From Microbacterium sp. GCS4 (lineage in GTDB: Bacteria > Actinomycetota > Actinomycetes > Actinomycetales > Microbacteriaceae), in NCBI RefSeq assembly GCF_001262495.1, contig NZ_LGYE01000005.1, positions 62,001-126,000 on the forward strand: a stretch of DNA of 64,000 nucleotides, in the 5' to 3' direction. The position numbers and the translations under genes were made by a program. The notes under the pieces were generated by a model that saw only the letters and a list, made by a program, of their open reading frames with translations, did not search any database and had not been told where the DNA came from. Below, piece after piece: positions 1,439 through 23,585 of this stretch (position 1 is the first letter of the stretch; the number at the start of each line of letters is the position of its first letter).

Positions 1439-2527
1439 TCAGGCCGAGCGCACCGTCGCCGCTCGGGCGAGGTCGCGCAGCTCCCCGACGGCCGTGTTGT
1501 CGAGTCGCGCGCCGGAGAGCGCACGGTCCGCGTCCTTCGCGTAGCCCGCGATCATCTCCTCGACGGACTCGAGCGCGCCCGACCCGGCGATGGTCGCCTG
1601 CAGGAAGGACACCTGCTCCGCGGTGAGGTCGGGGTCGCCCAGGAGCTCGTCGAACAGCGTGCGCGCTGAGGAGTCGAGCGACTGCCTCGTGAGCGCCACG
1701 AGCACGGTGCGCTTGCCTTCGCGCAGGTCGTCGCCCGCAGGCTTGCCCGTCACGGCGGCGTCGCCGAAGACGCCCAGGATGTCGTCCCGGAGCTGGAAGG
1801 CCATCCCCACGGGATGTCCGAACCGGCGCAGCGCCCGCAACTGCTCCTCGTCGGCCTCGGCCAGGGAGGCGCCGAGCACGAGTGGCTGCTCGATGCTGTA
1901 CCTGGCCGACTTGAGGGAGACCACGCGCAGGGCGCGCTCGACGTGCGAGTCCGTCGCGTTCACGCTCCAGGCGGATTCCTCCGCGATGTCGAGGAACTGT
2001 CCGACCGTGACGTCGCGACGCATCCGTGCGTACTCGCGTCGCACTCGGCGCGCGTGGGGGAGAGAGCTGACGGCGTCCTCGAGCAGGTCGTCGCTCCAGG
2101 CGACGAGGAGGTCGCCGAGGAGGATCGCGGACGAGCGGCCGAACGACTCGGCGTCGCCCGTCCAGCCGGCGCGACGATGCGACGCCTCGAGCGCGCGGTG
2201 CGCGGCCGGGCGTCCTCGACGGGTGTCGGAGTTGTCGATCAGGTCGTCGTGGACGAGGGCGGCTGATTGGAAGATCTCCAGCGCGGCGCACACGTCCCAC
2301 AGGCTCTCCGTCTCCGCTGCGGCGCGATCGCGCTGACGGGCGACCGCGCGCCAGCCCGCGTGGCAGAAACGGGCGCGGAGGCGCTTGCCTCCGACGAGCG
2401 TGTCTGCCGCGGATTCCTGGAGTGCAGCGGCATCCGGACCGTACTCGCGCGACTCGGTGCGCATCCGGTCGAGGAAGAGGTCCAGGCGGGCGGCGACGGC
2501 GTCGGGGACGAGGGAGGGGGACGGCAC
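1439..2527 (-). CDS. Polyprenyl diphosphate synthase
   Basis: Trans-type prenyltransferase that condenses isopentenyl diphosphate onto allylic diphosphates, feeding quinone, carotenoid or lipid-carrier synthesis. The first aspartate-rich motif HDDLIDNSDTRRG and the GGKRLRARF segment that binds isopentenyl diphosphate are present. The second motif reads FQLRDDILGVFGD. Length is about 362 residues, usual for IdsA/GrcC-type enzymes. GTG at 2527 was chosen because TATGCT ends seven bases before it, the leaderless arrangement common in this window. ATG at 2539 would add four residues but lacks a ribosome site. Chain length of the product cannot be told from the sequence. M. tuberculosis carries idsA2 in the equivalent neighbourhood. 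Confidence 0.88.
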   Translation of the reverse strand: MPSPSLVPDAVAARLDLFLDRMRTESREYGPDAAALQESAADTLVGGKRLRARFCHAGWRAVARQRDRAAAETESLWDVCAALEIFQSAALVHDDLIDNSDTRRGRPAAHRALEASHRRAGWTGDAESFGRSSAILLGDLLVAWSDDLLEDAVSSLPHARRVRREYARMRRDVTVGQFLDIAEESAWSVNATDSHVERALRVVSLKSARYSIEQPLVLGASLAEADEEQLRALRRFGHPVGMAFQLRDDILGVFGDAAVTGKPAGDDLREGKRTVLVALTRQSLDSSARTLFDELLGDPDLTAEQVSFLQATIAGSGALESVEEMIAGYAKDADRALSGARLDNTAVGELRDLARAATVRSA

Positions 2528-2540
2528 GACTCCCAGCATA
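2528..2540 (-). promoter_or_regulatory. Leaderless -10 element of the prenyl synthase gene
   Basis: On the minus strand TATGCT (2540-2535) ends seven bases before GTG 2527. It overlaps the alternative ATG at 2539, which argues against that upstream start. Confidence 0.4.
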
Positions 2541-2590
2541 CGTAAAGGGAACTGGGGCCGAACGGCTAGCCCGGAGGCTCATACCGCGCG

Positions 2591-2596
2591 TAGAAT
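2591..2596 (+). promoter_or_regulatory. -10 element of the DUF3040 gene
   Basis: TAGAAT lies about 27 bases upstream of ATG 2624. A CGAGGGGG ribosome site sits between them, so this transcript has a short leader, unlike many in the window. Confidence 0.5.
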
Positions 2597-2623
2597 GGAC
2601 AGACCATACCCGAGGGGGACGAA

Positions 2624-3001
2624 ATGCCACTCTCCGAACAGGAGCAGCGTCTGCTCGATGAGATGGAGCGCCATCTCCTGCACAATGACGCCGATGTCGT
2701 GAGTGCGCCGTCAGGCGACCGAGCACTCAGCTACCGCAACCTGGTGTACGGGGCGCTCCTGCTCCTCGCAGGAGTGGGCGGGCTGATCGTCGGTGTGATC
2801 CTCGGGGACGTCTGGGGCGTCGTCGTCGGCGTGATCGGATTCGCAGCGATGCTCGGCGGCGTCATGCTCGCCGTCACCCCCGTGCGCCGACCGCTCTCCG
2901 CCGCACCCCGCGAACGCGGTCCGAAGAAGCAGCCGCAGGGGTCCGCCTCGTTCATGGACCGCATGAACGACCGATGGGACCGGCGACAGGACGGTCACTG
3001 A
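2624..3001 (+). CDS. DUF3040 family membrane protein
   Basis: Small integral membrane protein of 125 residues. The N-terminal helix MPLSEQEQRLLDEMERHL is the DUF3040 hallmark. Two hydrophobic spans follow, at about residues 41-60 and 64-84. The basic C-terminal tail (KKQPQGS...DRRQDGH) should be cytoplasmic. Start ATG 2624 has a GAGGGGG ribosome site. The family is actinobacterial and of unknown function. Its position just before mraZ is conserved (Rv2169c in M. tuberculosis), which suggests but does not show a link to cell envelope or division. A strong terminator follows. Confidence 0.88.
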   Translation: MPLSEQEQRLLDEMERHLLHNDADVVSAPSGDRALSYRNLVYGALLLLAGVGGLIVGVILGDVWGVVVGVIGFAAMLGGVMLAVTPVRRPLSAAPRERGPKKQPQGSASFMDRMNDRWDRRQDGH

Positions 3002-3019
3002 CCCACCACGATCTTCCAC

Positions 3020-3052
3020 GAAGGCCCGGATGCGCTCAGCATCCGGGCCTTC
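3020..3052 (+). terminator. Rho-independent-type terminator after the DUF3040 gene
   Basis: A perfect 14-bp stem (3020-3033 with 3039-3052) closes a five-base loop. The stem is GC-rich and followed by TCGTCGTG rather than a pure T-run, as is usual in high-GC actinobacteria. Confidence 0.75.
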
Positions 3053-21136: not shown

Positions 21137-21736
21137 TCAGAAGCGTGCGTCCCGCGCCGCGGCGACGACGCCGTCGAGCGTCCTCTCGAGGAAGTCGACG
21201 ACAGCATCATCGCCGACTCGCCGATCCACGACCAGTTCGAGAAGCGCCTCCTCGGTGAACGACACCCAGGCGCGCAGCGCCACGCGCAGCGCCACGTCGT
21301 CGCGCACACCCAGCTCGACGAAGGCCTCTCGGAGGCGCAGCGCGTTGAGTTCGCGGGACTCGTCGACGATCGCGCGCACGGCCGGGTCGCCGCTCGCGAC
21401 GCCGCGGACGAGGGAGGAGAAGGTGCCGCTGTGGTCCCGCACGAACCCGGAGATCCGCAGCAGGGTGTCTCTGATCCGTTCGCGCGGGGGGAGGTCGAGG
21501 CGCGGCTCGGTCGCGAGGAGGAGGCTGTCCTTGGCGGTCGTGACGATCGCCCGCTCGAGCCCCTGGCGACTTTCGAAGTAGTGGAAGACCAGGGCTTTCG
21601 ATACGCCGGCGCGGAGCGCGAGCTCCTCGATCGTGAGGTCGTCGAGCGGATGCTCTGTCAGGAAGTGCACCCCGATCGCGATCAGCTGGGCGCGGCGCTC
21701 GTCGGGGCTGAGGCGAGAACGGCGCTCCGACGACAT
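21137..21736 (-). CDS. TetR family transcriptional regulator
   Basis: The 199-residue repressor-type protein has an N-terminal helix-turn-helix (RRAQLIAIGVHFLTEHPLDD, then ELALRAGVSKALVFHYFESR at about residues 35-54). The variable ligand-binding C-terminus gives no clue to the effector. It is divergent from the DUF6230 operon, and the shared 99-base spacer holds a strong 19-bp palindrome over that operon's -35. It therefore most likely controls the operon, and possibly itself. On the minus strand TAGGCT ends six bases before its ATG, so its own mRNA is probably leaderless. Confidence 0.93.
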   Translation of the reverse strand: MSSERRSRLSPDERRAQLIAIGVHFLTEHPLDDLTIEELALRAGVSKALVFHYFESRQGLERAIVTTAKDSLLLATEPRLDLPPRERIRDTLLRISGFVRDHSGTFSSLVRGVASGDPAVRAIVDESRELNALRLREAFVELGVRDDVALRVALRAWVSFTEEALLELVVDRRVGDDAVVDFLERTLDGVVAAARDARF

Positions 21737-21759: not shown

Positions 21760-21789
21760 TATTGACTCTGAATCAATAAGGCATAGGAT
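21760..21789 (+). promoter_or_regulatory. DUF6230 operon promoter with TetR operator
   Basis: -35 TTGACT (21762-21767) and -10 TAGGAT (21784-21789) are 16 bases apart. A near-perfect 19-bp palindrome, TATTGACTCTGAATCAATA at 21760-21778, covers the whole -35. Only one base pair either side of the centre mismatches. Repressor binding here would exclude RNA polymerase. A leader of about 40 bases with GAAGGAGGAG precedes the first gene. Confidence 0.75.
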
Positions 21790-21835: not shown

Positions 21836-22453
21836 ATGAAGTTCCCGAAGCCGTCCAGAGTCCTGTCCGCCGCGACCTCGTCGCACGCCGGACGCATCAC
21901 TCTCGCCGCCGTCCCGGCGGGGATCGTCGCCGCAGTCCTGCTCGGAGGAGTGGCGCAGGGCTCCGTGCCCGTATCGTTCGCCGTCTCGGGCAGTCAGTTC
22001 CAGATCGGCGCGAGCCAGCTCGAGGGCACAGGGTTCTCGCAGTACGCGGGCGTCGCGACCGACACCGAGGGCGGAGAGCACACCGTCGCGATCGCCAACA
22101 TCAAGAGCGCGACGCTCAGCGACCTCTGCCAGTCGGTCATCACCGAGACGCCGCTCGGCACCGTCGGGGTTCTCATCAAGGCCGGCGGGGGCGGGGAACC
22201 GGCGACCGCGAGCGACCTGCAGATCGGGATGACCGGTCTCAAGGGCGACGCGACGTTCGGCGGGATCCGCATCGGCGTCGACGCCTCGACCGTGAACACC
22301 GACGCCAAGGGCACACCGGGCGACTTCGCCCAGGACTCCGACACGATCTCGATCACGAACCTCCAGCAGACCGCATGGAGCACCCAGGCGTCCGTGTTCA
22401 CGCTGAAGGGGATGTCGCTCGAGCTCACGGACGGTTCGCAGGGATGCTTCTGA
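21836..22453 (+). CDS. DUF6230 family secreted or membrane-anchored protein
   Basis: The 205-residue protein has an N-terminal signal or anchor (AAVPAGIVAAVLLGGVAQGS) and an extracellular beta-rich domain. FAVSGSQFQIGASQLEGTGF and the paired-cysteine context LSDLCQSV...GSQGCF are features I associate with DUF6230 proteins, sometimes mislabelled cholesterol esterase. Function is unknown. It begins an operon with DUF6114 and a third exported protein, a pairing also known in Streptomyces. Expression is likely repressed by the divergent TetR. The strong GAAGGAGGAG ribosome site implies good translation once induced. Confidence 0.82.
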   Translation: MKFPKPSRVLSAATSSHAGRITLAAVPAGIVAAVLLGGVAQGSVPVSFAVSGSQFQIGASQLEGTGFSQYAGVATDTEGGEHTVAIANIKSATLSDLCQSVITETPLGTVGVLIKAGGGGEPATASDLQIGMTGLKGDATFGGIRIGVDASTVNTDAKGTPGDFAQDSDTISITNLQQTAWSTQASVFTLKGMSLELTDGSQGCF

Positions 22454-22467
22454 ACGGGACGGATGCC

Positions 22468-22890
22468 GTGACCGACAACTCGCCGGAGACCGCCGTCGCC
22501 GTGCCCGGGCGCTTCCGCGCGTGGTGTCGCCAGCGTCCCTTCATCGGCGGCATCCTCGTCGCGCTCGGCGGCATCGAGATGTTCTTCTCGGGGCAGCTCG
22601 ACATCGGACACCTGCATGTGCAGCTCGGCATCGAAGGACTCCAGGCGACGATCATCCCCGTCGTGCTGCTGCTCCTCGGCATCCTGGCGATCACCATGCC
22701 CGCGCACCATGTGTTCTACGGAGTGATCGCGCTCGCGGTCGCCCTGTACTCGCTGATCGGCGTCAATCTGGGCGGGTTCCTCATCGGCATGCTCCTGTCC
22801 GTCGTCGGGGGCGTCCTCGTCGTGGCGTGGATGGCCCCGCGTGAGACGATCTCCGTCGAGGCGCCGGACGTCGGGGCGACAGCGACGTGA
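22468..22890 (+). CDS. DUF6114 family membrane protein
   Basis: The 140-residue integral membrane protein has about four spans, covering roughly IGGILVALGGIEMFF, TIIPVVLLLLGILAIT, HHVFYGVIALAVALYSLIG and GFLIGMLLSVVGGVLVV. RPFIGGILVALGGIE near the N-terminus is typical of DUF6114. GTG 22468 has a modest ribosome site; ATG 22444, overlapping the previous stop, would add eight residues. The family travels with DUF6230 proteins, so it probably forms the membrane part of one exported complex. Its stop overlaps the next start (GTGA). Confidence 0.82.
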   Translation: MTDNSPETAVAVPGRFRAWCRQRPFIGGILVALGGIEMFFSGQLDIGHLHVQLGIEGLQATIIPVVLLLLGILAITMPAHHVFYGVIALAVALYSLIGVNLGGFLIGMLLSVVGGVLVVAWMAPRETISVEAPDVGATAT

Positions 22891-23585
22891 TCCGTCGCCC
22901 CGCCCTCGCCGCCGCTGCGCTCCTCGTCGCCGCCGCGGTGACGCCGATGACGCTCGGAGCGGCCGCCCCGCACCCTCAGGCGGGCTTCTGCATCCCGCTG
23001 ATCTACTGTCCGGATCCGGAGACCGATCCCGTGACGCCGTCCGAGAGCCCGTCCCCGACCGATCCCGCGGATCCGTCGCTGCCCGCGGTTCCTCTGCCGA
23101 CGGTCCCGGCTCCGCCCGTGCAGCCCGCACCGGTCGACCCCGTGCCCGCACCCGTCGACGATGCCGCGCCTGTCTTCACCGGTACGCCGGCGGCTCTAGG
23201 GTCGAAGTCGTTGTCCTTCACGGGACTCTCCGGGATCTCGATCGTCACCGTGCCGACCGTGGACGGTGGCGGAGTGCGAGTGCTCAAGATCAGCGCCGAC
23301 TCGATCACGATCGACGGATTCTCGCTCACGGTCCGTCCGCCCGACGGCCCGGGGCTCGTCACCACCGCCGACACGATGTCCTTGCAGGGGCATGTGAGCG
23401 TCTACCTCGGATCGGTGAGCGCCTCCGCGCTGGGCGGGGAGCCGCTCACGATCGGACTCGACACGCCGCCGCCGCTCACCGACATCGAGCCGGGTCTGCT
23501 GGACGTGACCATGGGTCTCGTCGGCAGCACGGCGGACTCGATCACGTACTCGAACACGGATCAGCGGATCGTCGAGCTCGACTAG
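22887..23585 (+). CDS. Secreted protein of the DUF6230/DUF6114 operon
   Basis: The 232-residue protein has a signal peptide (AAAALLVAAAVTPMTLGAAA), a CIPLIYC cysteine pair, and a Pro/Asp/Ser-rich linker of about 55 residues. The C-terminal domain consists of alternating beta strands (SLSFTGLSGISIVTVPTV, LKISADSITIDGFSLTV). I do not recognise a named family. The beta pattern with SADSITIDG and TADTMSLQG loosely resembles the DUF6230 domain, so it may be a diverged paralogue on a wall-spanning linker. GTG 22887 overlaps the upstream stop. It is the last gene of the operon. Confidence 0.7.
   Translation: MIRRPALAAAALLVAAAVTPMTLGAAAPHPQAGFCIPLIYCPDPETDPVTPSESPSPTDPADPSLPAVPLPTVPAPPVQPAPVDPVPAPVDDAAPVFTGTPAALGSKSLSFTGLSGISIVTVPTVDGGGVRVLKISADSITIDGFSLTVRPPDGPGLVTTADTMSLQGHVSVYLGSVSASALGGEPLTIGLDTPPPLTDIEPGLLDVTMGLVGSTADSITYSNTDQRIVELD

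Follow-up and report, generated by a model that had tools for sequence, protein, structure and literature searches.

A conserved, TetR-linked cassette of DUF6230, DUF6114 and a third exported protein in Microbacterium sp. GCS4, with a possible role in handling lipid esters

The cassette and its regulator gene

The cassette lies within a stretch of 64,000 nucleotides of Microbacterium sp. GCS4 (contig NZ_LGYE01000005.1, positions 62,001 to 126,000; here denoted the window), in a genome of 3.65 Mb whose nearest named relatives, among the best 80 of 554 confirmed stretches, are Microbacterium species. Three genes, denoted A, B and C, follow one another on the plus strand, and a gene encoding a TetR-family regulator is divergent from them. 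On one side the locus is flanked by an rluD-like gene (end 21135) and on the other by a GNAT gene and then dnaE, all named by sequence reading. The features, in coordinates of the window, are the following.

21137-21736, minus strand: TetR-family regulator, 199 aa, divergent from the cassette; PF00440 (35.9 bits) and PF21943 (35.5 bits), both above cut-off
21760-21778, no strand: putative TetR operator TATTGACTCTGAATCAATA; consensus TATTGAC-N5-GTCAATA with 1 mismatch in 14
21836-22453, plus strand: A, DUF6230 protein, 205 aa; PF19741 at 158.8 bits; N-terminal membrane helix and beta domain; Cys98 and Cys204
22444-22890, plus strand: B, DUF6114 membrane protein, 148 aa; PF19609 at 109.4 bits; four hydrophobic segments
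22887-23585, plus strand: C, exported protein, 232 aa; hydrophobic N-terminus, Cys35 and Cys41, Pro-rich linker at about residues 43-92, beta domain
23166-23561, plus strand: beta domain of C, about residues 94-225; putative distant DUF6230 relative; AlphaFold2 pLDDT 81.5

A matches DUF6230 over the full model (positions 1-145 of 145, cut-off 27.5 bits), as B does DUF6114 (positions 1-106 of 106, cut-off 27.9 bits); C exceeds the cut-off of no Pfam family and, up to E 1, matches nothing in NCBIfam. We placed the start of B at 22444, within an open frame that runs from 22375; B then shares 10 nt with A and 4 nt with C, which bears out the coupling of the three genes proposed in a preliminary description of this DNA. 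The interval given there, 21836-23585, leaves out the TetR gene. The characters which that description gave to the proteins were recovered as well. By hydropathy, A, described as signal-anchored and beta-rich, carries a single hydrophobic N-terminal segment (residues 21-39) and is predicted to be all-beta after a helix; B, described as a four-span membrane protein, has hydrophobic segments at residues 33-49, 69-85, 90-107 and 112-128 (17-residue window); and C, described as exported with a Pro-rich linker, has a single hydrophobic N-terminal segment (residues 6-24) ahead of the linker. Both Cys98 and Cys204 of A are kept in 61 of 66 A rows and both are missing in the other 5; a disulphide between them is likely. 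The corresponding motif of C, C-[ILVM]-[PL]-x(3,6)-C, occurs in 47 of 78 C rows, so the pair is not general. We also weighed a cleavable lipoprotein signal on C and rejected it, as we read no lipobox in the sequence ahead of Cys35.

The nearest solved structure to the TetR regulator by sequence is 2qib_A (E 2.5e-18). We examined its gene in 80 named loci, selected by similarity to A as the best 80 of 554 confirmed stretches. It is divergent from and adjacent to A in 65 of these 80; in 14 it was not found, and one of these 14 offers little space upstream. In the window, the 99 bp gap between TetR and A holds a 19 bp palindrome, TATTGACTCTGAATCAATA. Allowing up to 3 mismatches in 14, TATTGAC-N5-GTCAATA was found in 60 of the 65 TetR-A gaps of the named relatives (best 80 of 554), as against 0.15% of shuffled gaps; 14 of the 65 carry the exact consensus, and the remaining 5 gaps have 5 mismatches. 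In the whole 3.65 Mb of its own genome, TATTGACN5RTCAATA with up to 2 mismatches occurs as a single site. As read from the sequence, the operator overlaps a TTGACT -35-like box of the A promoter, with TAGGAT 16 bp on, so repression by promoter blocking is likely. The conservation of the operator supports the TetR control claimed earlier, and the cassette is very probably regulated by its own TetR; we infer that the protein binds this operator and that it answers to a ligand, whose nature is taken up below.

Three observations concern the regulator elsewhere. In L129 (3102-5573) TetR lies about 1.4 kb from A and an operator-like site still stands beside A, perhaps owing to an insertion between them. 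In L213 (G783; 2434-3033), from a close relative, an orphan TetR, identical at 168 of 199 residues, occupies the same site with a GNAT gene directly after it; neither A nor the operator was found there (the best site has 5 mismatches), and it looks as if the cassette was lost. At the site after rluD in 18 other genomes of the genus, L213 included, no A was found within the 1.5 kb examined.

Conservation of the three genes

We surveyed 296 genomes sampled from the class. The 80 named loci, being the best-matching ones, lean towards close relatives, and the class survey is less biased. A was found at 104 places in 61 genomes, with B at most 600 bp downstream at 100 of the 104. B without A was rare (5 of 105 places), and 4 of those 5 matches fall below the Pfam cut-off. 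C domains were detected at 61 places in 54 genomes and all 61 lie beside A and B, in a search that scored at most 13 candidates per genome, so that C elsewhere could be missed; at 43 A places in the survey no C was found. These counts indicate that C goes with A and B. At 28 of the 61 places the open frame of the B match is as long as that of the C match nearest to it, and we counted such pairs as one gene, having read examples from end to end. Such a fusion puts the C domain on the same chain as B, in which it would lie outside the membrane. Fusion and linkage together suggest that A, B and C may form a complex. The preliminary description had made its grouping depend on whether the third gene keeps its place in other genomes, and these figures answer that it does.

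Among 120 genomes of family f1, which we take to be Microbacteriaceae, A is present in 16, with B beside it in all 16, and C is present in the same 16. C neighbours A in 15 of these, and the sixteenth has the two on separate short contigs. Three C-like matches (G005, G051 and G077; E 2.0e-5 to 8.5e-4, one with internal stops) were set aside as chance or Pro-rich matches. In the named loci (best 80 of 554), B was found in 79 of 80, C in 76 and the whole TetR-A-B-C order in 61. Of the four named loci where C was not found, three are on contigs that end less than 530 bases from A, and one (L156) has room for it. In genus g91, which we infer to be Streptomyces, A and C occur together in 27 of 27 genomes among the matches listed, which makes the function directly testable in S. 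coelicolor. The cassette is real and conserved.

Some loci depart from the simple order. In L065 (5137-9621), whose genome falls in the same taxonomic order, three DUF6230 matches and two DUF6114 matches stand side by side, possibly an expanded module, and in L069 (5456-7372) a DUF6114-like segment runs into a longer open frame directly after the DUF6230 gene. A Frigoribacterium MAG (L136, 2071-6756) holds two A-B-C copies arranged back to back, one on each strand, and the stretch examined around them yielded no TetR. On plasmid pR8L1 of Rhodococcus sp. 008, typed as mobilizable, a DUF6230-DUF6114 pair follows a row of glycosyltransferase genes (L166, 6079-7037).

Predicted folds and the relatedness of A and C

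The preliminary description had seen in C a faint repeat of the DUF6230 pattern and proposed a set built on two related domains. The repeat is weak when C is compared with a broad A profile (hhalign E 0.0037, probability 9%; in a second comparison E 0.0084, score 21.4 against a shuffled maximum of 21.7), and the broad profile by itself does not beat shuffles. It is clear with five divergent A proteins (L051, L052, L053, L055 and L056, from two other families of the phylum, none with the Cys pair), which align with C over 49 columns at E 7.5e-6, probability 84% and score 38.0; the best of 60 block-shuffled C profiles scores 20.9 and the reversed C profile 10.0. The five were chosen after C matched one of them, and the hhalign filter kept 3 (effective diversity 1.85). 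Since the broad profile fails against shuffles, the claim of A-C homology rests on these five rows. When seven divergent A proteins were run singly against C with phmmer, four matched in the same register at E 5.8e-6 to 4.2e-4 and the other three (L049, L056 and L076) weakly, at E 0.027 to 0.073. 'Rubrobacter-type' as a name for the divergent rows would be a guess. C does not score as DUF6230: even at E values up to 10, PF19741 matched none of the 71 C rows. By way of the divergent proteins, the view that A and C are distantly related exported beta domains is supported. Two outlying loci that were read with their surroundings and a TetR (L067 and L068) have A and B without C, suggesting an origin of C from a duplicated A domain.

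Both proteins were modelled with AlphaFold2. The A model (pLDDT 92.2) has one long helix followed by very long strands and is otherwise all-beta; the C domain is also predicted to be all-beta, with a weak stretch at residues 109-116. In sequence comparisons of the A and C profiles with all solved chains, no match was found up to E 1. With Foldseek, A gave nothing below E 0.001 in the PDB (best E 0.015, TM about 0.1), and the C domain likewise gave nothing below E 0.001, with LptA at E 0.87 or worse. When the C domain was re-aligned to 994 chains, 9 reached Z 2: chain F of LptBFGC (Z 3.2), four LptA (2.5-2.9), BPI (2.3, sixth) and three others, the Lpt rows aligning over 62-67 residues. These Lpt-like matches are weak, and at such low Z values they show no function; OstA/LptC is not among the 15 Pfam families matched by 71 C rows.

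Several other candidates were discarded. Similarity of A to aldolase-dehydratase or acetoacetate-decarboxylase-like chains (VIA) reached Z 3.2 at best and is not believed. Three Foldseek matches of A to viral structures below E 0.001 (best 5.4e-4, a tail protein, probability 0.77) have TM of 0.17 or less and were taken as chance beta matches. In Pfam scans up to E 10, the matches of the 71 C rows to lumazine-binding (9 rows, best E 0.011), H-lectin (9, 0.05), phage-sheath (8, 0.0036) and PilN (2, 0.0032) families are inconsistent, and for the whole set of A rows DUF6230 is the one consistent family.

Neighbouring genes, the cholesterol esterase label and a possible lipid module

Genes next to the cassette in other lineages bear on its substrate. 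A cholesterol-oxidase-like gene (NF058674) is divergent from A, at 408-530 bp from the A domain, at no fewer than 15 of the 104 A places, all in family f93. This corresponds to at least 15 of the 19 A-bearing genomes of that family and to 7 of its 8 genera, and C-bearing copies adjoin the gene. Fourteen of these genes are full length and score 550-586 bits, below the 850-bit equivalog cut-off, and the fifteenth is truncated by the end of its contig; the comparison used rows of at least 468 bits and that fragment, so that neighbour counts are lower bounds. Since the f93 genomes share ancestry, the 15 are not 15 independent events. The other four A-bearing f93 genomes, G526, G585, G624 and G639, all of genus g338, had no such neighbour among the matches listed. 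Again among the matches listed, the 3 kb around A contain no strong oxidase-like row, either in the window or at any of the 89 other A places, and an NF058674 match of any strength, in no case above 850 bits, occurs in 60 of the 61 A-bearing genomes. The window's own genome has one of 526.6 bits on another contig. Presence alone therefore means little, and it is the position of the oxidase-like gene beside A that is telling.

In addition, MPAB_Lcp_cat oxygenase genes accompany divergent A-B(-C) copies at four or more loci (G280, G726, G765 and G247, that of G247 being seen in its own locus), and the G765 cluster adds alcohol, aldehyde and acyl-CoA dehydrogenases and an AMP-binding enzyme. Oxidase, oxygenase and dehydrogenase neighbours point to the oxidation of lipophilic substrates. 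A further arrangement is found in L076 (5742-7652), where squalene/phytoene synthase and undecaprenyl-diphosphate-synthase-like domains, joined in one protein, are encoded next to a divergent DUF6230-DUF6114 pair and an MPAB oxygenase gene.

DUF6230 is also presumably the family of the enzyme of Xiang et al. 2007 (BBA 1774:112), reportedly a protein of 217 residues. In two loci that we take to be from Streptomyces (L071 and L077), a thioredoxin-like gene is followed by A, B and C and then, on the other strand, by a gene that reads as pyruvate-kinase-like. For S. coelicolor, PMC7494193 names SCO5423 as pyk2 and reports 'cholesterol esterase (SCO5420)' to be almost 37-fold up on Tween 40 relative to glucose. 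By gene order, A would be SCO5420, B SCO5421 and C SCO5422, and on that order A is the putative counterpart of the labelled protein. Elsewhere a 'putative cholesterol esterase' is given as up on xylose and xylobiose, and another entry of that kind stands in a nitrogen-response table; these may or may not be DUF6230 proteins. Within the literature searched, DUF6230 is named in one paper, as a promoter source, and DUF6114, PF19741 and PF19609 in none. The DUF6230 family and the actinomycete 'cholesterol esterase' label, names that appear unconnected so far, can thus be joined, and this would make the labelled protein one of three components of a conserved surface module, another being its distant relative that spans the wall. 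The earlier statement that no function is established for these families now seems too strong, given the label of SCO5420, its reported induction on Tween 40 and the oxidase-like neighbour of a C-bearing copy.

Does A cleave esters? Among 66 A rows, none of the positions with His, Asp or Glu is conserved in more than 50 (at most 45 for His), and the 9 rows taken as Streptomyces have one Asp common to all, no His and no Glu, which makes a classical serine-esterase triad unlikely. A may be a non-classical hydrolase or a lipid binder.

The best-supported reading, to which we give somewhat less than an even chance, is that the cassette forms a cell-surface module under local control in which sterol-like or other lipid esters are bound or cleaved. 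It builds on what was computed here, namely the genes, their linkage, the shared frames, the conservation of the operator, the A-C similarity through divergent A and the oxidase-like neighbourhood in f93, and adds to it lipid binding and a direction, uptake, that we would propose. TetR would occupy the single palindrome, which overlies the promoter, and would be released from it by a ligand that is probably derived from a lipid. A would be fixed to the membrane by its N-terminal helix, bind the lipid and perhaps split it through non-classical chemistry, with B as its putative four-span membrane partner. C, the presumed distant paralogue of the A domain on a Pro-rich linker, would extend across the wall and hand lipid on to the other two proteins. 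A bolder form of this proposal, which we consider unlikely, is that A and C represent a new superfamily of exported lipid-groove beta proteins, A at the membrane and C across the thick wall, joined through B into a lipid relay that resembles a small reversed Lpt bridge for sterol-like esters in monoderm actinobacteria, with the 'cholesterol esterase' activity secondary.

That A is a true non-canonical secreted esterase of the 'actinomycete cholesterol esterase' family, with B and C just anchoring or displaying it and no transfer taking place, would fit the name of SCO5420 and its strong induction on Tween 40 (PMC7494193), as well as the cholesterol-oxidase-like neighbour in family f93. We nevertheless judge it improbable, because A lacks strongly conserved residues of catalytic type and is predicted to be all-beta with no confident enzyme match, and because simple anchoring would not need C, a relative of A that is kept in the set.

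Tween is a surfactant too, and the induction could accordingly be a detergent response. The cassette would then be an envelope-stress or membrane-homeostasis device, with TetR as the sensor of membrane-active compounds and the three proteins protecting or stabilising the membrane. TetR control through a single operator-like site in the genome and the membrane and wall-spanning architecture agree with such a device, but sterol-type and long-chain oxidation enzymes as neighbours in other lineages suggest a substrate rather than stress, and we regard this explanation as doubtful. Transport might also run outwards, the module exporting a cell-made lipid or polyprenoid to the outer wall. The C model is somewhat like LPS export proteins, and one divergent copy lies by the fused squalene/phytoene synthase; however, that synthase neighbours the cassette at one locus only, and induction on an external lipid ester together with oxidation-pathway neighbours suits uptake better, so that export appears very unlikely. 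The module acting on lipid esters thus remains our preferred reading.

Among known systems, the Lpt proteins (LptA, LptF-type beta domain, OstA fold) provide the best, if weak, structural matches of the C domain, in 5 of 9 rows at Z 2.5-3.2, but the cassette has no OstA/LptC Pfam match, no LptBFG partners were noticed near it and A is not matched. The host lacks an LPS outer membrane, unlike the Gram-negative owners of Lpt. TULIP/LmeA phospholipid-binding proteins are likewise exported and beta, BPI stands sixth among the C matches and 1 of 71 C rows matches PF11209 (E 0.05), although the cassette proteins have no significant sequence or fold match to them. Loci of cholesterol oxidase, a GMC flavoenzyme, resemble the f93 arrangement, in which an oxidase-like gene lies beside A and B-C in at least 15 genomes; they differ in that those enzymes fall below the equivalog cut-off and the window cassette has no such gene beside it. 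As to the actinomycete 'cholesterol esterase' (SCO5420), A of the window shares 32-36% identity with the 9 presumed Streptomyces rows, yet it is a DUF6230 protein and its partners B and C stand in the same order in the loci taken as Streptomyces.
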